A stretch of 23,735 nt of DNA, taken from a virus. Below the pieces are notes generated by a model. It did not search any database. It was given only the letters and a program-made list of their open reading frames with translations, and had not been told where the DNA came from. The stretch is from IMG/VR virus record IMGVR_UViG_3300037502_001048, positions 1 through 23,735 of that record, one strand, 5' to 3'. The position numbers and the translations under genes were made by a program. Positions 1 through 22,818 of the stretch are shown here, piece after piece (position 1 is the stretch's first letter; each line of letters begins with the position of its first letter).

Positions 1-582
1 GTGCTCGAGCCTGGCACAGTGTTGCACTCGTCCGGTCCACGCGCTGCCTGCATCGGCGGCTTTGAGGCTGAGGCGACGAGGCTGCTAGAGGCTGCTCTAC
101 GGCTCTCAGAGCGCCGCAACGCTCGGGAGCGTTGGGAGCATGGTCTCGACGCCTGCGCCCGTCTAGACGCAGCAGGAGGCGACCTGTCGGGATATGTGCG
201 CTCAGCCTGGGAGTACTTCGCTCGGCTCCTGCCCGATGAGGCTGCGATGACCCTGGCAACGACGCACCCGAGCACCCGGCAGCACCTCATGCCCGGCACC
301 GGCTGGACGGGGTTTGTGCTCAACCGGGACACGACGCTCGCCTACCACCGGGATACGTCGAACGGTCCCGGCTGGACGGCAGTGCTGGCGATCCGAGAGG
401 AAAGCCGAGGCGGCTGGCTGCACCTGCCGGAGTGGGACGTGTGGCTCCGGATGGCGCACGGCGAGGTCGCTCTGTTCCCGGGACTGACGACGTGGCATGG
501 CGTGTCGCCGGTCGATGGAGGGCTGAGGTGGTCGCTCGTCACCTACCCGAAGCGGCATGTCCCCAAGCGACGACCTGAGTAG
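1..582 (+). CDS. TET/JBP-like 2OG-Fe(II) dioxygenase, possibly 5'-truncated by the window edge
   Basis: The 193 residues visible carry the double-stranded beta-helix signature of an Fe(II)/2-oxoglutarate oxygenase. H116-x-D118 lies in the context YHRDTSNGPG, followed by GGWLHLPE at about 137-144, a distal H166 in TWHGVSP, and R176 in LRWSLVTYPKR, the usual 2OG carboxylate ligand position. The HRD-x-x-N-G start and the GG-x-L / HGV-x-P / R-x-S-x-V-x-Y ending resemble the TET/JBP branch that oxidises methyl groups on DNA pyrimidines; that family match is from memory. The GTG at base 1 may be the true start or an internal codon, because nothing upstream is visible. The stop TAG (580-582) abuts the -10 box of the next gene. 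Together with the ParB-like and ABC-GNAT genes downstream, a role in modifying phage DNA is inferred. A different 2OG oxygenase (for example protein hydroxylase) cannot be excluded. Confidence 0.75.
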   Translation: MLEPGTVLHSSGPRAACIGGFEAEATRLLEAALRLSERRNARERWEHGLDACARLDAAGGDLSGYVRSAWEYFARLLPDEAAMTLATTHPSTRQHLMPGTGWTGFVLNRDTTLAYHRDTSNGPGWTAVLAIREESRGGWLHLPEWDVWLRMAHGEVALFPGLTTWHGVSPVDGGLRWSLVTYPKRHVPKRRPE

Positions 583-594
583 TAGACTGCGAGC
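583..594 (+). promoter_or_regulatory. Leaderless -10 promoter for the ParB-like gene
   Basis: TAGACT at 583-588 is followed by 6 nt and the ATG at 595. No Shine-Dalgarno sequence precedes the ATG and no good -35 box lies 16-18 bp upstream. The same TAGACT plus 6 nt arrangement occurs before the gene at 22887. Inferred to give an mRNA that starts at or within a base of the start codon. Confidence 0.5.
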
Positions 595-1146
595 ATGAGC
601 ACCACCGAGCACATCGCTGAGGATCTGCGACCGCTCGCACAGCCGATCGACCTGCTCAAGCTCCTACCAGGCAACCCGAGGCGAGGCGATGTTGAGGCAG
701 TGATGCGCAGCTACGACCGCTTCGGGCAGCGCAAGCCGATCGTGGCGAGGCGTGACGGGACGGTCATCGCGGGGAATCATCAACTGCAGGCAGCGCAACG
801 CCTCGGCTGGTCGCACATCGCCGTGGTGTGGACGGACGACGATGACCTGACTGCGAAGGCGTTTGCACTTGCTGACAACCGGACCGCTGACCTCGGCGCG
901 TATGACGATGACGATCTGCGTGCGCTCATTGAGTCCGTGGCGATTGACCCGAACTTGCTTGCTGCAGCGAGTTATTCGCTCGATGATCTGCTGGACGACG
1001 CCAACGACATTATTGGCAATGGTGATTCTGTAGACATTGGAGAGCGATACGAGGTCGTCATTGAATGTGCAACTGAGTTAGAGCAAGAGGCTTTGTTGCT
1101 TAGGTTTAGTAATGAGGGCCTCAAAGTCAGAGCCATAGTTGTATGA
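595..1146 (+). CDS. ParB/sulfiredoxin-fold nuclease-like protein of the DNA-modification block
   Basis: A 183-residue protein with a ParB/Srx domain in its first ~110 residues. The LLPGNPRRGDVEAVMRSYDRFG segment (24-44) resembles the ParB N-terminal strand and helix; KPIVARRDGTVIAGNHQLQAAQRLGW (47-72) matches the core motif, with GNHQ replacing the GERR-type box of chromosomal ParB; ALADNRTADLGAYDDDDL (91-108) is typical of phage ParB-like proteins. No HTH or CTP-dependent partition partner is visible, so chromosome partition is unlikely. Phage ParB-fold proteins of this type often sit beside DNA methylases or modification enzymes and may bind or nick DNA. The tail (about 150-183, RYEVVIECATELEQEALLLR onward) looks like a separate small alpha/beta module, and base composition drops in AT-richer direction from about residue 138. 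The stop overlaps the next ATG (ATGA at 1143), suggesting translational coupling to the ABC-GNAT gene. Confidence 0.75.
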   Translation: MSTTEHIAEDLRPLAQPIDLLKLLPGNPRRGDVEAVMRSYDRFGQRKPIVARRDGTVIAGNHQLQAAQRLGWSHIAVVWTDDDDLTAKAFALADNRTADLGAYDDDDLRALIESVAIDPNLLAAASYSLDDLLDDANDIIGNGDSVDIGERYEVVIECATELEQEALLLRFSNEGLKVRAIVV

Positions 1147-2258
1147 CTGATATCGTTCTTTCATCGCGCATCGTTCGTAGCCCTAGAGTGATGCAGATCG
1201 AGGGAATGTTTGATCTGACGGCATCCGATACGAGTACGACTATTATTTCATGCAATGTTCCGAGTCTTGAGCAACAACACTGGAACATAGGGCTAATTGT
1301 CGGACCGTCTGGAAGTGGAAAGTCAACCGTTGCACGGCGCATGTTCGGAGCAGCGATGAAGGCAGCGGAAGATATTGCTTGGGACGCACAGCACGCGGTC
1401 GTGGACGAGTTCCCGAGCAAGCTGTCAGTGCGCGACGTTAGTGAACTGCTTTCCAGCGTGGGGTTCTCATCCCCGCCATCCTGGCTCAGACCGTTTCACA
1501 CTCTGTCGAACGGGGAACAGTTCAGGGTGGGGGTCGCTCGATTGCTTGCAGATGAGAACGACGTGACAGTCATCGACGAGTTCACCAGCGTGGTGGATAG
1601 AACGGTCGCGCGAGTTGGCTCTCATGCGATAGCAAAGGCGGTCAGAAGACGCGGTCAACGATTTGTGGCTGTGTCATGTCATTACGACATCGTCGAATGG
1701 CTGCAACCGGACTGGATCTACGAACCGGCCTCTGGAGAGTTCCGATGGGAGGGGCTTCAACGCCGACCAAGCGTCGACGTTGAGATCATTCGCTGCACGA
1801 CATCGGCGTGGTCATATTTCAGTCGGCATCACTATCTAAGTCACGAACTCAACAAGGCCGCAGCGGTGTATGTTGCCCTGATAGAAGATCAACCGGCCGC
1901 TCTTGCGGGCATTCTTCCATTTCCTCATCCGAAACTGAAGAACTGTTGGAGAATCAGTCGAATAGTCGTAACGCCAGACTTTCAAGGAATCGGTCTCGGG
2001 CTTCATGTCATCAACGGACTGGGTGCTGGCTATCGACATAACGCGCAACTGCTGGACATCTCTACAAGTCATCCGGCGATGATCGCTGCACTCAATCGCA
2101 GTTCTCTATGGTCACTCACTCGCAAGCCAAGTCGAACCGTTCGCAGCAAGTCCAACGCTGGCTTCGGAACTGCCGCTGGACGCATCACGGCCTCGTTTCG
2201 CTACTGTGGTCCGAGTGACGACCGATTGGGCTTGCTGACGTTGAGAGGTGGACGATGA
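1143..2258 (+). CDS. Soluble ABC ATPase fused to a Mom-like GNAT domain
   Basis: A 371-residue two-domain protein. Residues ~1-210 are a complete ABC-type ATPase: Walker A GPSGSGKST (54-62), signature LSNGE (121-125), Walker B VTVIDE (141-146), D-loop SVVD (149-152) and H-loop His180 in AVSCHYD. There are no membrane segments and no permease gene nearby, so it is not a transporter. Residues ~212-371 look like a GNAT domain: YFSRHHYLSHEL (225-236), then RISRIVVTPDFQGIGLG (270-286), which contains the acyl-CoA-binding Q-x-x-G-x-G turn. The HHYLS motif near the domain start resembles Mom-type GNATs; phage Mu Mom makes a carbamoylmethyl-type adenine modification. A role in DNA hypermodification, with the ATPase acting on DNA or as a remodeller, is inferred from this and the neighbours. 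It overlaps its neighbours by ATGA at both ends, and its base composition is AT-richer than the rest of the window, suggesting recent acquisition. Confidence 0.8.
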   Translation: MTDIVLSSRIVRSPRVMQIEGMFDLTASDTSTTIISCNVPSLEQQHWNIGLIVGPSGSGKSTVARRMFGAAMKAAEDIAWDAQHAVVDEFPSKLSVRDVSELLSSVGFSSPPSWLRPFHTLSNGEQFRVGVARLLADENDVTVIDEFTSVVDRTVARVGSHAIAKAVRRRGQRFVAVSCHYDIVEWLQPDWIYEPASGEFRWEGLQRRPSVDVEIIRCTTSAWSYFSRHHYLSHELNKAAAVYVALIEDQPAALAGILPFPHPKLKNCWRISRIVVTPDFQGIGLGLHVINGLGAGYRHNAQLLDISTSHPAMIAALNRSSLWSLTRKPSRTVRSKSNAGFGTAAGRITASFRYCGPSDDRLGLLTLRGGR

Positions 2259-2704
2259 GTAAGGGCGCACGCTCCGGCGACACTGGCAGGCACAGCAAGC
2301 TGACGCCCGAGGTGCAGGAGCGCATCGTGTCAGCGATCCGAGGCGGCAACTATCTAGAGGTCGCGGCGCAGTACGCAGGCATCGGCACGAGCACGCTCTA
2401 TCGCTGGTTAGCCAATGCCGACGACCCTGATGCCGACCCGAGTTATAGGGAGTTTCGGGATGCTGTAGAAAGCGCCCGTAGCGCAGCCGAGGTCCGCAAC
2501 GTGACGCTCATCCAGCAGGCAGCGAACGACGGCACGTGGCAGGCAGCAGCGTGGTATCTAGAGCGCACCGCCTGGCAGCGTTGGGGCAGACGGACGATGG
2601 TGACCGGCGACGCTGGCGAGGCGATCAAGGTCGAGGTCGACCACCGGCAGACGCTCCGGCAGGTACTCGGACTGGACGACGATGCCGCTCCTGCCGACGG
2701 CTGA
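2255..2704 (+). CDS. Terminase small subunit-like HTH protein
   Basis: A 149-residue protein with an N-terminal helix-turn-helix: LTPEVQERIVSAIRGGNYLE (about 16-35) followed by VAAQYAGIGTSTLYRWLANA (36-55), a resolvase/transposase-like HTH common in phage small terminases. A helical region follows (FRDAVESARSAAEVRNVTLI, IQQAANDGTWQAAAWYLER, WQRWGRR at about 66-116). The WYLER-x-x-x-x-x-W-x-R motif is typical of small terminases that recognise the packaging site. It starts at an ATG overlapping the preceding TGA, and its 3' end overlaps the large terminase by 23 nt, a normal arrangement. High-GC codon use resumes here. The role is inferred from the HTH and position directly before the large subunit. 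Confidence 0.8.
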   Translation: MSKGARSGDTGRHSKLTPEVQERIVSAIRGGNYLEVAAQYAGIGTSTLYRWLANADDPDADPSYREFRDAVESARSAAEVRNVTLIQQAANDGTWQAAAWYLERTAWQRWGRRTMVTGDAGEAIKVEVDHRQTLRQVLGLDDDAAPADG

Positions 2705-4085
2705 CAACCGCTCGTGGATCGACCGCTGGCGCGACGACGGGACGCTAGCGAGCCGTATCGACGCGCTGACGCCCGAGCAGGCTCGGGAGTTCCTCACACT
2801 CTGGGAGGTCTGGAGCCGACCCAATCAGCGCATCCCTGACGGCATGGGCGAGGCGTTCCGAGTGTGGATGTTCCGGGCCGGGCGAGGGTCGGGCAAGACG
2901 CGCTCGGGAGCGGAGACCTGCCGTCTGATGACTGAGCGTGTCGGGCGCATCGCCCTCGTCGCGCCGACTGCCGCTGACGTGCGGGACGTAATCGTGGAGG
3001 GCGAGTCGGGCATCATGTCCGTGTTTCCTAGCGACGAGCGACCGAGCTACGAGCCATCGAAGCGCCGTGTGACGTTCAAGAGCGGTGCTGTGGCGTTCAC
3101 CTACAGCGCAGAGGAGCCGGAGCGCCTCCGAGGTCCGCAGCACGGCTGGGCGTGGATCGACGAGCCTGCCTCGATGCCGTCAGGGCAGGCGATGCTCGAC
3201 AACCTGCTGCTCGGTCTCCGGCTCGGCTCTGCACCGTGGGCGATGGTCACCGGCACACCGAAGCCGCTGAAGTGGCTGCGAGAGTTGAGCGACCGCCCCG
3301 ACACGGTCACCACCACCGGCACGACGTTCGACAACGAGCGCTATCTCGCCCGTGGATTCATTACGGACGTGCTCGGGCGCTACGAGGGCACACGGCTCGG
3401 GCGGCAGGAGTTGTTCGCCGAGTGGCTCGAGGACGTAGAAGGTGCGCTCTGGACGCAGGCGATCATCGACGACAGCCGCATAGCGTCGTTCGACCTCGCT
3501 CGCCCGTGGGACTCGCTGAACGCCTGGCTCATCGCAGCCGGTCTCGCACCACGACAGGACCGCAGGCTGTGGCGCATCATCGTCGCCGTCGACCCACCGG
3601 GCGAGACAGCAGAGTGCGGCATCGTCGTCGCTGCTGCCCCGACGCAAGGCCAGGCAGGCGTGGACCATGTTGTGATTCTGGAGGATGCCAGCATCGCCGG
3701 TCGCCCCGAGGTCTGGGGCAGCCAGGTGGCGTCGGTGGCTCGCAAGTGGAACGCCGAGCGTGTCGTGGTGGAGAGCAATCAGGGCGGCGACATGACTCGG
3801 GCGACCATCGCCGCCGTGGACCCAACCCTGCGGATCGAGAAGATCCACGCCAAGGTCGGCAAGGGCGCACGCGCCGAGCCGGTCTCTGCTCTCTATGAGC
3901 GACGGCTGATCCATCACGCCGGGTTCTTGCCGATGCTCGAGCAGCAGATGACCACCTGGGTCTCTGGCGACAAGTCCCCCGACCGGCTGGACGCTCTCGT
4001 CCACGCCGTGTCGACGCTGGTCACGGCGCAGGCGAAAGTTCAAGCGTCTGTCCGCTCCGTCGCTAACCGAAGACTCCCGGCATGA
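2682..4085 (+). CDS. Terminase large subunit (ATPase plus nuclease)
   Basis: A 467-residue DNA-packaging motor. The N-terminal ATPase has Walker A GRGSGKT (67-73, in FRAGRGSGKTRSGAE) and Walker B with catalytic Glu in AWIDEPA (about 156-162). The motif MVTGTPKP (about 190) is the coupling motif. The C-terminal RNase H-like nuclease has its acidic residues in VAVDPPGE (about 302-309), VVVESNQGGD (about 361-370) and SPDRLDALVHAV (about 430-441). Length is usual for an actinophage-type terminase and the reading frame is intact, with no intein here. The chosen ATG lies inside the end of the small-subunit gene; the start cannot be much later because the N-terminal helices precede the Walker box by ~65 residues as expected. 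The gene is followed by 25 nt and a methyltransferase. Confidence 0.95.
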   Translation: MPLLPTADNRSWIDRWRDDGTLASRIDALTPEQAREFLTLWEVWSRPNQRIPDGMGEAFRVWMFRAGRGSGKTRSGAETCRLMTERVGRIALVAPTAADVRDVIVEGESGIMSVFPSDERPSYEPSKRRVTFKSGAVAFTYSAEEPERLRGPQHGWAWIDEPASMPSGQAMLDNLLLGLRLGSAPWAMVTGTPKPLKWLRELSDRPDTVTTTGTTFDNERYLARGFITDVLGRYEGTRLGRQELFAEWLEDVEGALWTQAIIDDSRIASFDLARPWDSLNAWLIAAGLAPRQDRRLWRIIVAVDPPGETAECGIVVAAAPTQGQAGVDHVVILEDASIAGRPEVWGSQVASVARKWNAERVVVESNQGGDMTRATIAAVDPTLRIEKIHAKVGKGARAEPVSALYERRLIHHAGFLPMLEQQMTTWVSGDKSPDRLDALVHAVSTLVTAQAKVQASVRSVANRRLPA

Positions 4086-4110: not shown

Positions 4111-5448
4111 ATGAGCACCACCAACCGCATCCTCCACGGCGACTGCCGACAGATGCTCCGCACCCTCGCCGACTGCTCGGTCGACTCGATCGTCACCGAC
4201 CCGCCGTACGAGCTGGGGTTCATGGGCAAGCACTGGGATGCCTCGGGCATCGCCTACAGCGTCGACATGTGGCGCCAATGCCTGCGGGTGTTGAAGCCTG
4301 GCGGTCACCTGCTGGCGTTCGGCGGCACCCGCACCTACCACCGCATGGCCGTCGCGATCGAAGACGCCGGGTTCGAGGTGCGCGACAGCATCCATTGGCT
4401 GTACGGCTCCGGGTTCCCGAAGTCGCTCAACGTCGCCATCGCCATAGACAAGGAGGCGGGGGCGATGGGCCACCGAGGCACGCGTGCCTCGGTGGCTGGC
4501 AACATTCGACAGGGGCAAAACGTCAAGCCCGCCAAAGCCATGCCAGCCCACGAGCCAGTGACCGACGCCGCCAAGCAATGGTCCGGCTGGGGCACGGCAC
4601 TCAAACCGGCACACGAACCGATCGTCGTCGCCCGCAAGCCGCTCGTCGGCACCGTGGCGCAGAACGTGCTGCAGCACGGCACCGGGGCAATCAACATCGA
4701 CGGGGGACGGGTTGCCGTCGGTGATGCTGAGGCTGCGGCTCGTGCCAGTTGGTCGGAGCGTTACGGAATGAACCATTACGCGACCGGCAACGTCTATGGC
4801 GGCGGGCAAGGGCTTGACAAGACGATGACCGGCGCAGGATTCAACGCCACCGGCCGCTGGCCCGCCAACATCGTCCTCACCCACGCCGTTGACTGCGCCG
4901 ACACCTGTGCCGCAGACTGCCCGGTCGCCGAACTGGACCGGCAGAGCGGCACGCTGACCAGCGGAGCGAACCCGACCCGCAGGAACAGCGACAAGTTCCG
5001 CAACGCGTACGGCGACTTCGTCGGACAGACCGAGTGCACGCCTGCCCGTGGCATCGACACCGGTGGCGCGTCCCGGTTCTTCACCGTCACCGAGTGGGAC
5101 CCGATCACCGACGTCCCGTTCCGCTACGTCGCCAAGCCTGGCAAGACAGAGCGGAACGCAGGGCTAGGTGCCAACTTCCACCCCACCGTCAAGCCGGTCG
5201 ACCTCATGCGCTGGCTCGTCAGGCTCGTCACGCCACCCGGCGGCACCGTCCTCGACCCGTTCCTCGGCTCCGGCACTACCGCCGTCGCAGCGATCCTCGA
5301 AGGCTTCGACTGGGTCGGCTGCGAACTGACCGACGACTACCTGCCGATCATCGAAGGGCGAGTTGCCTGGGCGCAGCACAGAGTCGGCTATGTGGCCCCG
5401 ACTCGGGTGACCTCATCCGAGCCTGACCAACTGGAGTTGTTCTCGTGA
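4111..5448 (+). CDS. DNA N6-adenine/N4-cytosine methyltransferase, beta type
   Basis: A 445-residue S-adenosylmethionine-dependent DNA methylase. The catalytic motif IV is TDPPYELGFMGKHWD (D30-P-P-Y33), the next conserved block LRVLKPGGHLLAFGGTRTYHRM lies at about 69-90, and the AdoMet-binding motif I region HPTVKPVDLMRWL...VLDPFLGSGTTAVAA is near 358-395. Having DPPY before FLGSGTT makes this a circularly permuted beta-class enzyme, which methylates the exocyclic amine of A or C, not the C5 position. Residues ~100-340 contain a long target-recognition region with the common phage-methylase phrases GTALKPAHEPIVVARKPL and GTGAINIDGGRV. No restriction enzyme gene adjoins it, so it is probably an orphan methylase that protects or marks phage DNA. 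The first codons ATGAGCACCACC match several other leaderless genes. The stop overlaps the GTG of the next gene. Confidence 0.9.
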   Translation: MSTTNRILHGDCRQMLRTLADCSVDSIVTDPPYELGFMGKHWDASGIAYSVDMWRQCLRVLKPGGHLLAFGGTRTYHRMAVAIEDAGFEVRDSIHWLYGSGFPKSLNVAIAIDKEAGAMGHRGTRASVAGNIRQGQNVKPAKAMPAHEPVTDAAKQWSGWGTALKPAHEPIVVARKPLVGTVAQNVLQHGTGAINIDGGRVAVGDAEAAARASWSERYGMNHYATGNVYGGGQGLDKTMTGAGFNATGRWPANIVLTHAVDCADTCAADCPVAELDRQSGTLTSGANPTRRNSDKFRNAYGDFVGQTECTPARGIDTGGASRFFTVTEWDPITDVPFRYVAKPGKTERNAGLGANFHPTVKPVDLMRWLVRLVTPPGGTVLDPFLGSGTTAVAAILEGFDWVGCELTDDYLPIIEGRVAWAQHRVGYVAPTRVTSSEPDQLELFS

Positions 5449-5729
5449 TCTGGCTGCTCGTCGCTCTCGCCACCTATCGCCTGACGCGCCTCGTCACGAC
5501 CGACACGCTGACCGCTCCGGCGCGTGAGTGGGTGCAGGCTCGCTACGACCGGGTCGGCTACCTCGTCGGCTGCGACTGGTGCTCGTCAATGTGGCTCGCT
5601 CCCGGTCCGGTGCTGCTCGGCGTGCTCGCTCCCGACTCGACGTGGACGCTGGTGCTGCTCGGCATCCCTGCTGCCTCGGCTGTCGTCGGGATCATGGCGA
5701 CGCTCGTCGGACGCTGGGAAGATTCCTAG
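5445..5729 (+). CDS. DUF1360-like small membrane protein
   Basis: A 94-residue protein starting at a GTG that overlaps the methylase TGA (GTGA). The N-terminus IWLLVALATYRLTRLVTTDT and the central GCDWCSSMWLAP motif (about 42-53) are characteristic of the DUF1360 family, which occurs in phages and Firmicutes/Actinobacteria and has no established function. Two hydrophobic stretches (about 50-63 and 68-87) are predicted membrane helices; the first 10 residues may form a third, short one. The CxxC pair could form a disulfide or bind metal. Its stop codon TAG (5727-5729) lies inside the upstream element of the first cassette promoter, so the two features overlap. Confidence 0.65.
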   Translation: MIWLLVALATYRLTRLVTTDTLTAPAREWVQARYDRVGYLVGCDWCSSMWLAPGPVLLGVLAPDSTWTLVLLGIPAASAVVGIMATLVGRWEDS

Positions 5730-5784
5730 AGATTCTTTGCGCTAGACGTAGACAACTACGACCGGAGTCGCTAAGATTCTCCAC
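5721..5784 (+). promoter_or_regulatory. Cassette promoter copy A, with operator-like palindrome and upstream element
   Basis: Upstream 20-bp element GATTCCTAGAGATTCTTTGC at 5721-5740 (two GATTC words 10 bp apart), 8 nt, -35 box TAGACA at 5749-5754, 17-bp spacer, -10 box TAAGAT at 5772-5777, then 7 nt to the ATG at 5785. The spacer contains CGAC-CGGA-GTCG (5759-5770), an inverted repeat that could be an operator. There is no Shine-Dalgarno site; transcription is predicted to start at the ATG. Three further copies are at 10608, 21929 and 22488. Confidence 0.85.
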
Positions 5785-6075
5785 ATGAGCAACGCCACCA
5801 CACTCCAGCACATCGGCCGCATGAACGTCCTCGCCATCTCGGGCGGTCGGGTGCAGGTCATCGACGAGACCACGATCAGCTTGCCGGTTCACTACGGCTA
5901 CTCGGTCGAGATCAAGCTCAACGAGGCACAAGACCTCTACGAGGTGCGGCGCATCTTCCGCCGTGGCACCAAGCGGTGGATCAAGGGCGAGCAGCTCGGC
6001 GTCTACTGCGACGAGGTCGGCGAGATCGCCTACCGGGCAAGCTGCTACCTCGACGAGTTCGGCGGCGAGTCGTGA
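5785..6075 (+). CDS. Cassette A gene 1, small hypothetical protein
   Basis: A 96-residue protein I do not recognise. It begins MSNATTLQHIG, then shows alternating hydrophobic and charged residues suggesting a small beta-rich fold (NVLAISGGRVQVI, YSVEIKL, LYEVRRIFRRGTKRWI, GVYCDEVGEIAYRASCYLDEF). The Y-x-V-R-R-I-F-R-R-G-x-K-R-W stretch (about 53-65) is strongly basic and the C-terminus acidic. No signal peptide or membrane segment. It is predicted to be translated from a leaderless mRNA and is coupled by a GTGA overlap to the next gene. Nothing in the sequence gives a biochemical role; its promoter groups it with the small genes at 10666, 21993 and 22552. Confidence 0.75.
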   Translation: MSNATTLQHIGRMNVLAISGGRVQVIDETTISLPVHYGYSVEIKLNEAQDLYEVRRIFRRGTKRWIKGEQLGVYCDEVGEIAYRASCYLDEFGGES

Positions 6076-6299
6076 GCCGGACCGTTCCGCTCGACGTGCT
6101 CGTCCGCTGCGATCAGAACCGCCTGTTCGGCTGCGGAGCGACGTGCTACGTCCCTGCCATCCTGCTCAAGCTCTACGGCTCCGACCTCATCAAGGTAGTC
6201 GGCGGTGGCGAGTGCTCTCGCTGCAGCCTGCCGCTCGCCGTCTGCCGTGACGCTCGAGCGACAGAGCGTGCGCTCTATGAGGAGCGCGTCAAGGCGTAA
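6072..6299 (+). CDS. Cassette A gene 2, small Cys-rich (possible zinc-binding) protein
   Basis: The GTG at 6072 overlaps the TGA of the preceding gene (GTGA), giving 75 residues; longer in-frame starts upstream would lie inside gene 1 and are rejected. The protein begins MSRTVPLDVLVRC and has six cysteines in two clusters, CDQNRLFGCGATC (about 13-25) and CSRCSLPLAVC (about 48-58). This spacing suggests a zinc-ribbon-like or disulfide-linked fold. The C-terminus is a charged helix. Not recognised as a named family. The same GTGA arrangement is seen in cassettes B and C. A hairpin at 6342-6376 lies 42 nt downstream and may end the unit. Confidence 0.65.
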   Translation: MSRTVPLDVLVRCDQNRLFGCGATCYVPAILLKLYGSDLIKVVGGGECSRCSLPLAVCRDARATERALYEERVKA

Positions 6300-6341
6300 G
6301 GCAGCAAGGGTCCAGCCCGGTGACCATCCGTGGCGCTGCCT

Positions 6342-6376
6342 CCCCGGAGCCGATACCGAACCACTCGGCTCCGGGG
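6342..6376 (+). terminator. Hairpin, possible terminator of cassette A
   Basis: CCCCGGAGCCG (6342-6352) and CGGCTCCGGGG (6366-6376) form a perfect 11-bp stem with a 13-nt loop. No T-tract follows. It lies between the end of cassette A and the next small gene. It is probably an intrinsic terminator of the U-tract-poor type seen in high-GC bacteria, or an attenuator for the genes at 6413 and 6554, for which I see no clear promoter. Confidence 0.6.
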
Positions 6377-6412
6377 CGATGGACCCCACCTACCACCACA
6401 GAAAGGGTCAGC

Positions 6413-6544
6413 ATGACCTCAACAACGAAAGGCCAACTATCCGTGTGGCGACTGGTCGTCGCTATCTGCACTGTCGGCATCTCCGCCCTGTTCATCGGCG
6501 TTCGCAAGCCGATCGGCAAGTCCAAGATCATTCATCACACCTGA
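6413..6544 (+). CDS. Small single-pass membrane protein
   Basis: A 43-residue ORF starting at the ATG at 6413, preceded by GAAAGGG (6401-6407) as a plausible ribosome site. The upstream in-frame start at 6320 would translate through the hairpin and has a low-complexity Pro/Thr stretch, so it is rejected. After MTSTTKGQLSVW comes one hydrophobic helix, LVVAICTVGISALFIGV, then a basic tail RKPIGKSKIIHHT, consistent with an N-out/C-in membrane peptide. Function unknown. Ten nt separate it from the next gene. Confidence 0.5.
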   Translation: MTSTTKGQLSVWRLVVAICTVGISALFIGVRKPIGKSKIIHHT

Positions 6545-6553
6545 GAGGACCAT

Positions 6554-6796
6554 ATGAGCATCATCTTCCGAGACCCACCACCCGACACCCGTCGCACCCG
6601 TGGCGCAGCGCAGGCGTTCGTCGACGTTCTTCAGGCGAATCCGCAACGCTGGGCCGTCTACAGCGAGGGCATGACGCAGAAGGCTGCGACCGGCTTTGTC
6701 AGTCGCAACCGTCGTCGCTTCCCGCAAGTGGACTGGCGTGCGACTCCCGAGACCGACGGGTCGTGGAGCGTCTACGGCTACTACCGCTTCGGGTAG
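6554..6796 (+). CDS. Small hypothetical protein with basic centre
   Basis: An 80-residue protein starting at ATG 6554 with AGAGGA (6544-6549) upstream. The sequence contains DVLQANPQRWAVYSEGMTQKAA and FVSRNRRRFPQVDWRATPE, then SWSVYGYYRFG. This is reminiscent of small phage proteins with an alpha-beta fold in which a helix is followed by strands that read out as 'W-x-V-Y-x-R', but I do not assign a family. It ends 28 nt before a strong hairpin that separates it from the portal gene. Role unknown. Confidence 0.65.
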   Translation: MSIIFRDPPPDTRRTRGAAQAFVDVLQANPQRWAVYSEGMTQKAATGFVSRNRRRFPQVDWRATPETDGSWSVYGYYRFG

Positions 6797-6819
6797 ACTG
6801 CTCAGCGGCGAGAAGAGAT

Positions 6820-6861
6820 GCGTCAACGCCTGCCCTGCTCATGTGGGGCAGGCGTTCACGC
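6820..6861 (+). terminator. Strong hairpin terminator before the portal gene
   Basis: AACGCCTGCCC (6825-6835) pairs perfectly with GGGCAGGCGTT (6846-6856), and the stem extends across one C-C mismatch with GCGT (6820-6823) and ACGC (6858-6861). The loop is 10 nt. No T-run follows. It separates the small genes from the portal operon, whose -10 box begins 14 nt downstream. Confidence 0.7.
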
Positions 6862-6874
6862 GTTCCGGGTGATG

Positions 6875-6887
6875 TAGGCTAGCGACC
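6875..6887 (+). promoter_or_regulatory. Leaderless -10 promoter for the portal operon
   Basis: TAGGCT at 6875-6880 is followed by 7 nt and the GTG at 6888. No Shine-Dalgarno site. It follows the hairpin at 6820-6861 directly, giving a terminator-promoter boundary between transcription units. Confidence 0.5.
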
Positions 6888-9755
6888 GTGGCGCGCAGAC
6901 GACATGAGCAGGCACCGGCGTGGAACTCGCTGATTGCCGCAGCCGAGATCATGACGGCCCCGTCGATGCCGCTGCGAGCCATCGCCCACCGCACCGAAGC
7001 ATGGCAGCAAGCAGCGTGGGACTACTACGACTCGGTCGGAGAGCTGCGCTTCGCCTCGCAGTGGATCAGCAACGCCGTGTCAAGGGTCAACCTTGTCGCC
7101 GCTGCACCGGCAACCGGACCGGGTGACGAGCCGACACCTATTGCTCAGGACGACTTCGAGTTCACTGCCGGGCAGCGTCGTGCCGCCGAGATCGTCGCAC
7201 AGATCGCAGGCGGCTCCGGAGGGCAGGGCCAGATGCTCGGGTCGTTCGGTGTCCATCTGACCATCGCCGGGATCGGCTGGCTGGTCGCTGAACCACCGAT
7301 CGACGACCCGCTTGCCGACGAGTTCACCTCGTGGAACGTCTACAGCTCCGAGGAGATCCGCACCACCTCTGACGGCGTGGTCGAGGTCCGGGTGAGCTAT
7401 CGAGAGTGGCGACCGCTGCACCCGAATAGCGTCGTCGTGAAAGCGTGGCGCAGGCACCCGAGGTGGAGCTATCAGCCGGACGCTCCTACTCGTGGCGTGC
7501 TCGGCGTGCTGCGCGAGATCGAACTGCTCCAGCAGCACATTCACGCGTCGGCGCAGTCCCGGCTCGCTGGTGCTGGCATTCTGACCATCCCGAGCGAGGC
7601 AGTGTTCCCGCCCGGGCAGGGACCGCAGTCGTCATTCGAGGACGTCCTCGCTCAGAATCAGAACGTCACAGCACCTGAGGACTCGTTCGTTGACACTCTC
7701 GTCGACTCGATGACGGTCCCGATCACGGACCGTTCGTCGGCTGCTGCCGTGGTGCCGCTGGTGATCCGCATTCCTGGCGAGTTCGTCGACAAGGTCCGGC
7801 ACCTGACGTTCGCAACGCCGTTCGATGATCGGGTGCTGAGCCTGATGGAGTCCGCCATCCGTCGTCTGGCGCTCGGTCTCGACATCCCGCCCGAGATCCT
7901 CACCGGCGTCGCTGGGATGAATCACTGGTGCGTGCCTGTCGAGCATCCCATCCTCACCGCTGAAGGCTGGAAGCACGTTGATGACCTGGCGCTCGGTGAG
8001 CGCATCGCCACGATGAACACGACGACGGGCGCTCTGGAGTTCCTCCCGGTCCAGCACATCTACCGTGCACAGGTCGAGGCTGAGCCGATGCTGGAGGTCA
8101 CTCTCGTCGGTCAAGGCGGGCACATGTCGAAGGTGTCAATGACGCAGGGTCACCGGAACGTGGTCCAACGTGACGGCACATGGACAATCGTCACCGCCGA
8201 TGAGCTGCGTGAGGGCGACGTGATCCCGACCGCTGCGCCTGCTCGTGACTTCCCGACCGAGCCGAAGTGGTCTGACTCGTTCGTGCAGTTGGTCGCCTGG
8301 TACTCGGCAGACGGCACGCTGACCAAGCAGAACGGCAAGCCCGGCCAGATTCGCATCGCCAAGTCGTGGAAGGTGAACCCGCACCTCGTCGGCAAGATGA
8401 CCGCTCTACTTACCGAGACCTTCGGACCGGCGTCAGAGACCATGCCGCAGGGCGCAGTCGAGCCGATGTGGCGCATGGAGATGCAGGAACGAGGCATGGC
8501 GGTCGCCGTGCTGAATGCTGCTGCTCGGAACATGCTGCTCGCCGTGATGCCTGGTCACGAGAAGGTCGTGCCTCGCTGGTTCGTGGAGTCGCTCACAGAG
8601 GCACAGACGCACCTGTTCCTCGCTGCATGGGCTGAGTCTGACGGCGTTAGCTCTGGCGGCGAGTGGAAGGGCGTCATCGAGCAGTCCAACCCTGACCGGC
8701 TCGACGCCATTGAACTCGCAGCACTTCGTGCCGGGTACTCGGTGCGTCGCTGGTCGGAATCGCTCGTCGGCGCAACGGAGCACGGCAGGTTCTCGGACCG
8801 TCCGATGCACTGCCTGCGAGTCGGCAAGATGACCTATCGCACGGTGCGCGCCATCGAGCAGGTCGCCTACACGGGCGAGGTGTGGTGCCCGACGACCGCC
8901 AACGGGACGTGGATCACGCAGACGGATCGTGGCTGGTCGATGGTCACCGGCAACTCGGCATGGCAGGTCGAAGAGCAGGCGATCACGCTGCACATCGAGC
9001 CACTGTCCGAGGTGATCTGCCACGCCCTCACCATCGGCTTCCTGGCACCTGCTCTCGAGGCCGAGGGCATCGACCCGAGCGAGGCGATGGTCTGGTACGA
9101 CACCAGCGACCTGACCGCTCGCCCGGACAAGACCCGGCAGGCGATCGAGGCATACGACCGCAACGAGTTGAGCGGCGCTGCGATGCTGCGTGAGGTCGGG
9201 CTGAGCGTCGATGACATGCCGAGCGAGGAGGAGAAGCGTGAGCGCATCCTGCTCTCCGTCGCCCGGAGCGTGCCTGCGCTTGCACCGCCAATCCTTGCCG
9301 AGCTTGGCTTCATCGCCTCTGACGCCATCCCGGTCGAGGTCGAGGCTGCACCTGCTTCTGCTGCGCTCCCGGCAGTAGAACCGACGCAGGGACCACCCGA
9401 GACCGCAGTGCCCGGCGACGCCCTGACGGCTGCGTGCGACGTGCTTATGCACCGAGCGATGGAGCGTGCCGGTGCCCGACTCCGGTCGGCTGCAGGCAAG
9501 CGCACGCAGGGTGGTGCGGCAGCGATTCCGTGTGATGACCCGAGCCGCCTGCACTGCACCGTCGATGCGACCTCGTTCGCCGACCTCGGCTCACTGCTTG
9601 AGGGCGCGTGGGGCATCGTGCCGGACATCGCCCGGAGATGCCGTGTGGACCCGGACACGCTGACGCAAAGCCTCGACCGCTACGCGCGCGCCCTCCTGGC
9701 GACCGGCGAGCCGCACACTCACGAGAGACTCGCTCATGCTCTCGGAACCGCCTGA
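6888..9755 (+). CDS. Portal protein precursor containing an intein
   Basis: A 955-residue reading frame. The host protein is a phage portal (dodecameric ring at the capsid vertex): N-terminal WQQAAWDYYDSVGELRFASQWISNAVSRVNL (about 39-69), HIHASAQSRLAGAGILTIPSE, and DDRVLSLMESAIRRLALGLDIPPEILTGVAGMNHW just before the insertion. An in-frame intein occupies residues 348-689 (7929-8954). Its removal joins NHW to SAWQVEEQAITLHIEPLSEVI, restoring the conserved NHW-x-AWQVEE portal segment and leaving a 613-residue protein. The C-terminal ~200 residues are Ala/Pro-rich and helical, with a motif CDDPSRLHC. The 3' end overlaps the MuF gene by 20 nt. Portal identity rests on these motifs and position between terminase and MuF. 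Confidence 0.9.
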   Translation: MARRRHEQAPAWNSLIAAAEIMTAPSMPLRAIAHRTEAWQQAAWDYYDSVGELRFASQWISNAVSRVNLVAAAPATGPGDEPTPIAQDDFEFTAGQRRAAEIVAQIAGGSGGQGQMLGSFGVHLTIAGIGWLVAEPPIDDPLADEFTSWNVYSSEEIRTTSDGVVEVRVSYREWRPLHPNSVVVKAWRRHPRWSYQPDAPTRGVLGVLREIELLQQHIHASAQSRLAGAGILTIPSEAVFPPGQGPQSSFEDVLAQNQNVTAPEDSFVDTLVDSMTVPITDRSSAAAVVPLVIRIPGEFVDKVRHLTFATPFDDRVLSLMESAIRRLALGLDIPPEILTGVAGMNHWCVPVEHPILTAEGWKHVDDLALGERIATMNTTTGALEFLPVQHIYRAQVEAEPMLEVTLVGQGGHMSKVSMTQGHRNVVQRDGTWTIVTADELREGDVIPTAAPARDFPTEPKWSDSFVQLVAWYSADGTLTKQNGKPGQIRIAKSWKVNPHLVGKMTALLTETFGPASETMPQGAVEPMWRMEMQERGMAVAVLNAAARNMLLAVMPGHEKVVPRWFVESLTEAQTHLFLAAWAESDGVSSGGEWKGVIEQSNPDRLDAIELAALRAGYSVRRWSESLVGATEHGRFSDRPMHCLRVGKMTYRTVRAIEQVAYTGEVWCPTTANGTWITQTDRGWSMVTGNSAWQVEEQAITLHIEPLSEVICHALTIGFLAPALEAEGIDPSEAMVWYDTSDLTARPDKTRQAIEAYDRNELSGAAMLREVGLSVDDMPSEEEKRERILLSVARSVPALAPPILAELGFIASDAIPVEVEAAPASAALPAVEPTQGPPETAVPGDALTAACDVLMHRAMERAGARLRSAAGKRTQGGAAAIPCDDPSRLHCTVDATSFADLGSLLEGAWGIVPDIARRCRVDPDTLTQSLDRYARALLATGEPHTHERLAHALGTA
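7929..8954 (+). other. Intein with LAGLIDADG (DOD) homing endonuclease in the portal gene
   Basis: 342 residues. Block A starts at Cys1 (CVPVEHPILTAEGWKHVDDL). Block B is SMTQGHRNVV with the T-x-x-H pair. The two LAGLIDADG-type helices are LVAWYSADG (about intein residue 120) and LFLAAWAESDG (about 230). Blocks F/G are EVWCPTTANGTWITQTD and MVTGN, followed by Ser as the +1 extein residue. The penultimate residue is Gly rather than the usual His. Both splice junctions restore a conserved portal sequence. Known role: self-excision by protein splicing, with the endonuclease spreading the element into intein-free portal alleles. Confidence 0.93.
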
Positions 9756-21928: not shown

Positions 21929-21992
21929 GATTCTTAGAGATTCTTTGCCTTAGTGCTAGACATGTGCGACCGGAGTCGCTAGTATGTCCACC
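21929..21992 (+). promoter_or_regulatory. Cassette promoter copy C
   Basis: GATTCTTAGAGATTCTTTGC at 21929-21948, 8 nt, -35 TAGACA at 21957-21962, 17-bp spacer with CGAC-CGGA-GTCG (21967-21978), -10 TAGTAT at 21980-21985 and 7 nt to the ATG at 21993. An ATG at 21984 lies inside the -10 box and is not the start. No Shine-Dalgarno site. Confidence 0.87.
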
Positions 21993-22205
21993 ATGAGCGA
22001 CACCACGAACACCCTGACCGAGACCGAGACCATCATCCTGCACATGCTCCGCAACGGCGCACGCCTGAGCATCGCCCATATCCATAACCGGCTGATCGGT
22101 CGGGGCGACACGCACGAGGCGATCATGAGCCTACAGCGCAAGGGGCTGATGAAGGTCTCGCAGATGGGCTACCCAACGGCGTATATCCCGAGCGAGGCAA
22201 AGTGA
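21993..22205 (+). CDS. Cassette C gene 1, winged-helix-like protein, candidate regulator
   Basis: A 70-residue protein from the ATG 7 nt after the -10 box. It begins MSDTTNTLTETET; helix 1 IILHMLRNGA, helix 2 LSIAHIHNRLI, helix 3 DTHEAIMSLQRKGLM, then a beta-hairpin-like KVSQMGYPTAYIP. This is the order of a minimal winged helix DNA-binding domain. If so, it may bind the CGAC-N4-GTCG palindrome or the GATTC element in its own promoter. The family is not firmly recognised and the DNA target is inferred. It is GTGA-coupled to the next gene. Confidence 0.65.
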   Translation: MSDTTNTLTETETIILHMLRNGARLSIAHIHNRLIGRGDTHEAIMSLQRKGLMKVSQMGYPTAYIPSEAK

Positions 22206-22477
22206 GGCGCAGCGAGCGAGTCCGGCAGGCCATCGGGCAGGAGGTCTGGACGCTGCAGCACGGTCTCGCCGAGTTGGTCAGCGAGCGCACCGAGCACAAC
22301 GTGACCGTCAGCGTGTTCCGCTGCGCCTGGCTGGCTCGTCCGTACCTCTGGTACGTAGAGCGGTACGACAGGACCGGAGGCGTATCGCAGGAGATCTGGC
22401 TTCCCGAGCCGGAGGGCTTCGCCACCGCCGAGGCGTGCGCTGCGGATGCCTGGGCGCTCGTCAATCGCCCGGACTGA
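22202..22477 (+). CDS. Cassette C gene 2, small hypothetical protein
   Basis: A 91-residue protein starting at a GTG that overlaps the TGA of gene 1. It has a basic start (MRRSERVRQAIGQEVW) and segments LAELVSERTEHNVTVSVFRCAWLARPYLWYVERYDRTGG and EPEGFATAEACAADAWALVNRPD, which read as an alpha/beta domain with W/Y-rich strands. No motif is recognised. The end is 10 nt before the upstream element of cassette D. No terminator is visible between the two units. Confidence 0.65.
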   Translation: MRRSERVRQAIGQEVWTLQHGLAELVSERTEHNVTVSVFRCAWLARPYLWYVERYDRTGGVSQEIWLPEPEGFATAEACAADAWALVNRPD

Positions 22478-22487
22478 CTCTCGGGAA

Positions 22488-22551
22488 GATTCTTAGAGAT
22501 TCTTTGCCATAGGGGTAGACAATACGACTGGAGTCGTATATAGTTACCTAC
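22488..22551 (+). promoter_or_regulatory. Cassette promoter copy D
   Basis: GATTCTTAGAGATTCTTTGC at 22488-22507, 8 nt, -35 TAGACA at 22516-22521, 17-bp spacer with the longest palindrome (ATACGAC-TGGA-GTCGTAT, 22522-22539), -10 TATAGT at 22539-22544 and 7 nt to the ATG at 22552. No Shine-Dalgarno site. Confidence 0.87.
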
Positions 22552-22818
22552 ATGAACAACACCACCGCCACCGCCACCTACAACGCAGTCGCCGGATACG
22601 TCGAAGTCACCCTCTCGGACGGCACGATCCTCAAGAGCAAGAAGGGCAAGAACGCCGCCAAGGCTCTCTACCTCACTGTCACCTTCGGCACGAAGAGCAA
22701 CCCCAACTGGGCACCTCGCATCGATTCAATGCAGACCAGCCTGACCGGCATCCAGAATCGGGCTGCTCACCTCGCTGACTGCACCTACAACGTCGAGGTC
22801 GTCGAAGTCACTCGCTGA
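22552..22818 (+). CDS. Cassette D single gene, small hypothetical protein
   Basis: An 88-residue protein beginning MNNTTATATYNAVAGYVEVTLSD, then GTILKSKKGKNAAKALYLTVTFGTKSNPNWAPRIDS and NRAAHLADCTYNVEVVEVTR. The strand-rich opening and lysine-rich centre (KSKKGKNAAK) suggest a small beta domain that could bind nucleic acid; I do not recognise a family. Leaderless translation is predicted. It is followed 16 nt later by a hairpin with a T-run. Unlike the other cassettes it has only one gene. Confidence 0.7.
   Translation: MNNTTATATYNAVAGYVEVTLSDGTILKSKKGKNAAKALYLTVTFGTKSNPNWAPRIDSMQTSLTGIQNRAAHLADCTYNVEVVEVTR

Follow-up and report, generated by a model that had tools for sequence, protein, structure and literature searches.

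The left end of IMG/VR record IMGVR_UViG_3300037502_001048 encodes a TET/JBP-type oxygenase, a ParB-family protein and an ABC ATPase fused to a GNAT domain (ABC-GNAT). The record is linear, and the complete entry of 23,735 bases was used for the analysis (the window). The window is probably a phage fragment. An earlier note on this DNA had described these genes as a candidate hypermodification block of three adjacent genes, and all three open reading frames (ORFs) are open and co-directional. The block sits just upstream of the terminase genes and has the following features.

1..582, plus strand: TET/JBP-type 2-oxoglutarate (2OG)-Fe(II) oxygenase of a short divergent subfamily, with its N-terminus cut by the contig start (Pfam Tet_JBP, PHROG 6059)
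595..1146, plus strand: recombinant ParB-family protein with an own-lineage N-domain and a tail of the ABC-GNAT type (PHROG 723, E 2.6e-33)
1143..2258, plus strand: ABC-ATPase/GNAT fusion of 371 amino acids (PHROG 11143, E 2.7e-106, full-length match)
1302..1325, plus strand: Walker A motif GPSGSGKS, residues 54-61 (invariant alignment positions)
1503..1517, plus strand: ABC signature LSNGE, residues 121-125 (alignment)
1575..1580, plus strand: end of Walker B and catalytic glutamate, D145-E146 (alignment)
1755..2255, plus strand: GNAT domain, residues 205-371, with the CoA-binding motif QGIG at residues 281-284 (Acetyltransf_1, E 1.4e-5)

The third gene had been read as an ABC ATPase joined to a GNAT, and ABC_tran and GNAT domains are both present in the one protein. 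Walker A, LSNGE, Walker B with E146, H180 and Q281-G282-x-G284 are invariant or nearly so in a 44-sequence alignment, which also keeps family motifs such as HHYL. The ABC ATPase motifs, the H-loop included, are intact, and the invariance of Q281, G282 and G284 indicates an intact CoA-binding motif. A second ABC-GNAT alignment contained 75 sequences. AlphaFold2 modeled the protein as an ABC nucleotide-binding domain and a GNAT domain with a predicted local distance difference test score (pLDDT) of 90.9 and a predicted template modeling score (pTM) of 0.84. The full model matched the ABC nucleotide-binding domain 7w7b_E with Z = 14.8 (root-mean-square deviation (rmsd) 3.1, 175 aligned) and the GNAT protein 1y9k_B with Z = 14.2 (rmsd 3.2, 139 aligned). 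The GNAT domain modeled alone had a pLDDT of 90.1 and matched 1y9k_B with Z = 13.7 (rmsd 3.3, 139 aligned). ABC-GNAT relatives recur far more often than chance would allow. They occur in 78 named phage records, of which about 51 have the complete fusion and the others the ABC part alone, and are encoded on 243 IMG/VR stretches and 342 bacterial-genome stretches. COG2401 is a further label for this family.

The description of the GNAT domain as Mom-like in the earlier note was not borne out. No Mom PHROG was matched at E 0.1, and hhalign against a profile led by Mu Mom gave a probability of 0.2%. Membership in the Mom family (PF25680) was rejected because the profile comparison failed and a seemingly common HY motif was not supported. 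Mom is not among the 25 Pfam families listed for the window proteins. The Mom structure 8bv8 is not among the 50 fold matches listed, and this does not argue that the folds differ. In Rhodococcus phage Jace, a PanD-type aspartate decarboxylase gene (gp87; L005 6101-6526; Pfam 2e-33) lies directly 3' of ABC-GNAT and might provide the beta-alanine of an unusual acyl donor. PanD was rejected as a clue to the donor because no viral or phage locus checked other than that of Jace has it there.

The ParB-fold assignment of the second gene stands on its PHROG 723 match; the Pfam ParB_N score of 19.4 bits is under the cut-off of 26.3. The gene overlaps ABC-GNAT by 4 bp. Of 69 non-redundant viral and phage loci, 65 have a ParB gene no more than 300 bp before ABC-GNAT, most often overlapping it by 4 bp, and ParB is directly upstream in 66 of 75 bacterial-genome loci. 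As a control, 423 further long ORFs from the viral loci were considered, and none has ParB in that upstream position. Isolated phages with ParB and ABC-GNAT are Gordonia phages AnClar, BiggityBass and Axumite, Arthrobacter phage EastWest, Rhodococcus phage Jace and Lactococcus phage P335, and the arrangement is also found in NHagos and Leptospira phage LE4. By these comparisons, ParB and ABC-GNAT are an old, widespread pair. Gene fusions of ParB with ABC-GNAT or with TET, which were sought as proof of contact, are absent from the loci examined. The pair is common in the genomes of planctomycetes (L257-L336), and a simple search detected a TerL (terminase large subunit) relative in 11 loci.

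The window was compared at the nucleotide level with L099, a locus on the same contig as L087, which contains the closest homologue of the window TET. The comparison divides the window ParB into two parts and defines two further features.

882..2284, plus strand: swapped block of low guanine-plus-cytosine (GC) content, comprising the rest of ParB including the tail, and ABC-GNAT (L099 nucleotide comparison)
1030..1143, plus strand: ParB C-terminal tail of the ABC-GNAT type, residues 146-183, proposed docking segment (tail profile, E 2.4e-18)

The window DNA aligns with L099 as far as base 881, within ParB, and again from base 2285, a short way into the gene for the small terminase subunit. The swapped block is replaced in L099 by a ParB tail, DpdA, QueC, QueD, QueE and FolE. 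GC content drops at the junction: the leading part of ParB has 0.64, the remainder 0.51 and ABC-GNAT 0.54, against 0.66-0.68 in the window TET, terminase and methylase genes. ParB residues 1-96 are identical at 82 of 96 positions (85%) to the ParB of L087, a DpdA-type relative. Residues 129-183 share 16 of 55 positions with L087 versus 33 of 51 with the tail of L043, an ABC-GNAT-paired ParB whose N-domain is identical to that of the window at 49 of 118 positions. An N-domain tree, built from 97 alignment columns and with uneven deeper supports, groups the window with L087 at a support of 0.957. The ABC or non-ABC label changes 18 times by parsimony on this tree. Judged from the sequences, the window ParB is a recombinant between an own-lineage N-domain and an ABC-GNAT-type tail, and the ABC-GNAT block appears to have been acquired separately, as a segment of low GC content.

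A profile of the tail was trained on viral ABC-GNAT-paired ParBs with the window left out, and it found the window ParB with an E of 2.4e-18. The tail is present in 59 of 59 viral ABC-GNAT-paired ParBs, which are the training class, and in 68 of 68 from bacterial genomes, which are outside the training set. It was detected in 0 of 8 TET-neighbor, 0 of 4 DpdA-neighbor, 0 of 9 Mom-neighbor and 0 of 26 methylase-fused or long ParBs. The totals are 127 of 127 for ABC-GNAT-paired ParBs versus 0 of 47 for the others. TET- and Mom-type ParBs have tails of their own, and DpdA-type tails are varied. The match between tail and payload suggests that ParB carries a docking site for its enzyme, and it points to ParB as an adaptor whose predicted docking tail is matched to that enzyme.

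Linkage alone would produce the same match if recombination in the N-domain carried the remainder of ParB together with the next gene and the tail did not bind. Homologous recombination is expected within conserved ParB sequence, and the left breakpoint falls there; the varied DpdA-type tails are also consistent with this explanation. However, the tail type is found in every ABC-GNAT-paired ParB across phages and bacteria and in none of the others, and it stays the same despite the many changes of label on the N-domain tree. Linkage is the main alternative to docking, though as the whole cause it is rather unlikely.

To compare the slot, IMG/VR relatives of the window TerL were collected and the genes upstream of terminase were read. 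The right flank of the slot in the window is formed by the terminase genes at 2255..4085.

2255-2704, plus strand: terminase small subunit (PHROG 4102, E 1.4e-33)
2682-4085, plus strand: TerL (Terminase_6N, E 4.6e-17)

The slot in L099, whose TerL is 77% identical to that of the window, contains TET, ParB, a DpdA-type transglycosylase, QueC, QueD, QueE and FolE, followed by the terminase genes. L100 and L110 have ParB with DpdA-type genes, and L107, L109 and L115 have ParB and TET. Pfam detected an amino acid:DNA transferase (ADDT-type) in L107 and a pyridoxal phosphate (PLP) enzyme (PALP) and a P-loop kinase in L109. These gene sets follow the thymine hypermodification scheme known from phage Tonitrus. 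The TerL of L098 is 96% identical, and its DNA is 89.7% identical from window base 2495 rightwards. Similarity is lost upstream, and there L098 encodes a relative of the L101-L104 PALP genes. In the ABC-GNAT loci, no match was returned by queries for DpdA, Que, FolE, kinase, ADDT and Mom, and the one PALP-type match there (L073) is on the opposite strand. A search for ABC-GNAT in the relatives' whole records found nothing, a result that alone shows nothing. A separate search for Mom located ParB directly upstream in most Mom loci. By this comparison, the region before the terminase genes is best read as a slot for DNA modification, whose cassette is exchanged among relatives.

Other slot contents were also recorded. 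A fusion of ParB with a methylase accompanies PALP-type PLP genes in L102-L104, and Pfam detected an AspH-like oxygenase in L102. The ParB-methylase/AspH-like/PALP cassette spans 3954-7584 in L102 and 4749-8262 in L104. In L126, ParB is followed by two tandem Mom-family genes (6052-7827).

ParB and ABC-GNAT are likely to be the working unit of the modification slot, with predicted base acylation and docking through the tail as the whole explanation. Base acylation is the best reading of ABC-GNAT because of the slot context, the pairing with ParB, seen also for enzymes whose base chemistry is established, the intact motifs and a published prediction. The kept pairing, the intact ATPase and CoA motifs, the replacement of cassettes and the payload-specific tails are read from the sequences directly. 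The DNA-modification role put forward in the earlier note is well supported for ParB and ABC-GNAT by the cassettes in relatives' slots and by the position of ParB before Mom, and fails for a unit of three enzymes. In the proposed mechanism, the ParB N-domain would bind nucleotide and load on or scan phage DNA, following the precedent of ParB and DpdB. The C-terminal tail would bind the ABC-GNAT enzyme, as the tail-payload matching suggests. ATP-driven closure of the ABC domain may then clamp DNA or expose a base, and the GNAT domain, judged by its fold and motif, would transfer an acyl group from acyl-CoA to an exocyclic base amine. The acyl mark would shield phage DNA from host nucleases.

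Several points weigh against predicted base acylation by a docked pair. The window is a fragment, and no nucleoside data for ABC-GNAT phages were found in the accessible literature. A few phages, such as Nonlabens phage P12024S, carry the fusion without a neighboring ParB, and the tail-payload matching could in part be linkage through N-domain recombination. The GNAT fold is nearest to generic protein or small-molecule acetyltransferases, for example RimI and Naa50, so the substrate of ABC-GNAT could be a protein. The enzyme would then acylate a host protein or ParB itself, for instance redirecting host machinery or regulating ParB. The structural proximity of the GNAT domain to protein N-acetyltransferases and generic GNATs favors this possibility, and a passage in PMC7824862 describes protein-acting phage GNATs, with Rac acting on RNA polymerase. 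Protein acylation is nevertheless improbable, given that ABC-GNAT occupies a slot used by base-modification cassettes in close relatives and that the arrangement with a ParB partner is common to ABC-GNAT, Mom and DpdA-type genes.

The first gene reads as an oxygenase of the TET/JBP type, as had been proposed (PHROG 6059, E 3e-16). The Pfam Tet_JBP match (E 2.4e-6, 27.3 bits) is under the curated cut-off of 34.9 bits, and tblastn matches to annotated phage TET-like genes reach an E of 2e-15. The 2OG-Fe(II) signature, HxD (H116/D118), H166 and R176, is common to the window TET and ten phage relatives. The L087 homologue is 59% identical and has about 17 extra N-terminal residues, so TET probably does not start at the GTG of base 1. 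A search for further relatives of the short TET returned L087 only. Related phage TETs co-occur with genes of the 5-hydroxymethyluracil (5hmU)-kinase type, which implies thymine as the substrate. No C5-methylase was found among the window proteins scanned, and the methylase present is of the N6/N4 type. Taken together, these two points make 5hmU the likeliest product, and the window TET most likely converts thymine to 5hmU. Genes for a 5hmU DNA kinase, ADDT and PLP enzymes were not found in the 23.7-kb window, itself a fragment.

A TET gene stands beside ABC-GNAT in the window alone among the 69 viral and 75 bacterial-genome loci examined, and the short TET of L087 adjoins DpdA/Que. TET is, by this comparison, a separate element of the same slot and not part of the ParB and ABC-GNAT unit. 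The trio is not conserved as a unit, and the single combined modification type that the earlier note had allowed for therefore lacks comparative support. In such combined chemistry, TET would hydroxylate a pyrimidine and ABC-GNAT would acylate the resulting hydroxymethyl group, in keeping with the adjacent, co-directional genes for TET, ParB and ABC-GNAT. The restriction of this neighborhood to the window, the DpdA/Que partners of the same short TET in L087 and the separate low-GC origin indicated for the ABC-GNAT block all argue against it, and we consider it very unlikely. Two independent marks, a TET product and a GNAT product, are possible. A defense or superinfection-exclusion system in place of self-DNA modification is the least probable alternative: ABC-ATPases are present in several defense systems and PADLOC weakly matched the ABC part to a MADS protein, but that match was rejected as short and confined to the signature region, and the block adjoins late packaging genes and has no nuclease or toxin gene.

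The right part of the window is a tailed-phage packaging and structural region by Pfam and PHROG. It encodes the terminase subunits, a head morphogenesis protein, a protease-like protein and a major head protein, and the intein-bearing gene at 6888-9755 is labeled portal by position. The intein (7933-8957; Pfam Intein_splicing) interrupts this gene. L098 matches both sides of the intein and is without about that stretch, and its copy of the gene therefore seems to be an intein-free allele. The N6/N4-type DNA methylase gene (4111-5448) lies between TerL and the next gene and is missing in L098, where TerL is directly followed by sequence matching the window from 5446 onwards. The methylase is accordingly an accessory insertion. 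A short intergenic repeat occurs at about 5710-5801, 21929-22006 and 22476-22570, and the two copies on the right share the core GATTCTTAGAGATTCTTTGCC. Each of the three aligns to L098 2383-2476, and the repeat may be a promoter or operator element.

Both the prediction of acylation by ABC-GNAT and the ParB-TET cassettes are already known. A DNA acyl-modification role for ABC-ATPase-GNAT proteins was predicted earlier with QAX98348.1 as the exemplar, according to the passage in PMC7824862 that restates Iyer et al. 2013. That passage mentions neither a ParB partner nor payload-matched tails for the QAX98348.1 family. The window ABC-GNAT matches the QAX98348.1 locus of Aeromonas phage AsFcp_2 with 37.7% identity over 93% (tblastn E 1e-62), with the same domain order and direct homology. 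Literature coverage was partial and excluded the 2013 source; within it, no report was found of payload-matched ParB tails or of exchange between ABC-GNAT and DpdA/Que in one slot.

The phage Mu Mom family, which modifies adenine (PDB 8bv8), shares with ABC-GNAT the general GNAT fold of the GNAT superfamily, a predicted base-amine target and, in IMG/VR relatives of Mom, a ParB directly upstream. ABC-GNAT differs in keeping the classic CoA-binding QGxG motif, in having its own ATPase and in the absence of profile similarity. The ParB tails also differ, and many Mom-type tails bear a CPxCG zinc-binding-like motif. In DpdA/DpdB and the phage 7-deazaguanine systems, an enzyme that modifies bases is likewise encoded next to a ParB-family gene, upstream of terminase. 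DpdB has been described as a ParB-like ATPase that works with DpdA and is dispensable in some clusters. The chemistry of this cassette type has been measured in phage Rosebush, which has DpdA/Que and dPreQ0 at about 28% of guanines, and in phage CRB2 a ParB-like ORF1 before dpdA is a suggested DpdB homologue. DpdA systems replace guanine by transglycosylation, whereas ABC-GNAT is predicted to acylate the base. The ParB-TET thymidine hypermodification cassettes of Tonitrus, LittleMunchkin and cluster B mycobacteriophages have ParB and TET upstream of terminase, as in the window. Gordonia phage LittleMunchkin, with its TET payload, belongs like AnClar to the genus Sourvirus. The Tonitrus-type TETs follow ParB, and some are accompanied by kinase, ADDT and PALP genes. 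In the window, TET precedes ParB and is of a short divergent type, and those partners were not found in the fragment. The tRNA cytidine acetyltransferase TmcA/NAT10 also combines an ATPase and a GNAT in a single chain, and TmcA structure 2zpa ranked 12 in Foldseek for the full ABC-GNAT model. The TmcA ATPase is of the RecA/helicase type and not ABC, the enzyme acts on RNA, and there is no sign of close relationship. TmcA serves as a functional analogy only for ATP-assisted base acetylation.

A broader proposal, which we put forward tentatively, is that phage ParBs are modular adaptors with a common DNA-loading N-domain and a tail that docks one kind of enzyme (ABC-GNAT, Mom, TET or DpdA). The chemistry would be changed by a joint swap of tail and enzyme. 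The phage represented by the window would be such a recombinant, and its DNA may bear both a TET-made 5-hydroxymethyl pyrimidine and an N-acyl base. ABC-GNAT is common in phages, yet no paper testing its product was found. The exchange of cassettes in the slot and the match between tail and payload are concrete grounds for expecting a new base in the DNA. They also suggest that the many phage genes called 'ParB-like nuclease' that adjoin DNA-modification enzymes have a general role.

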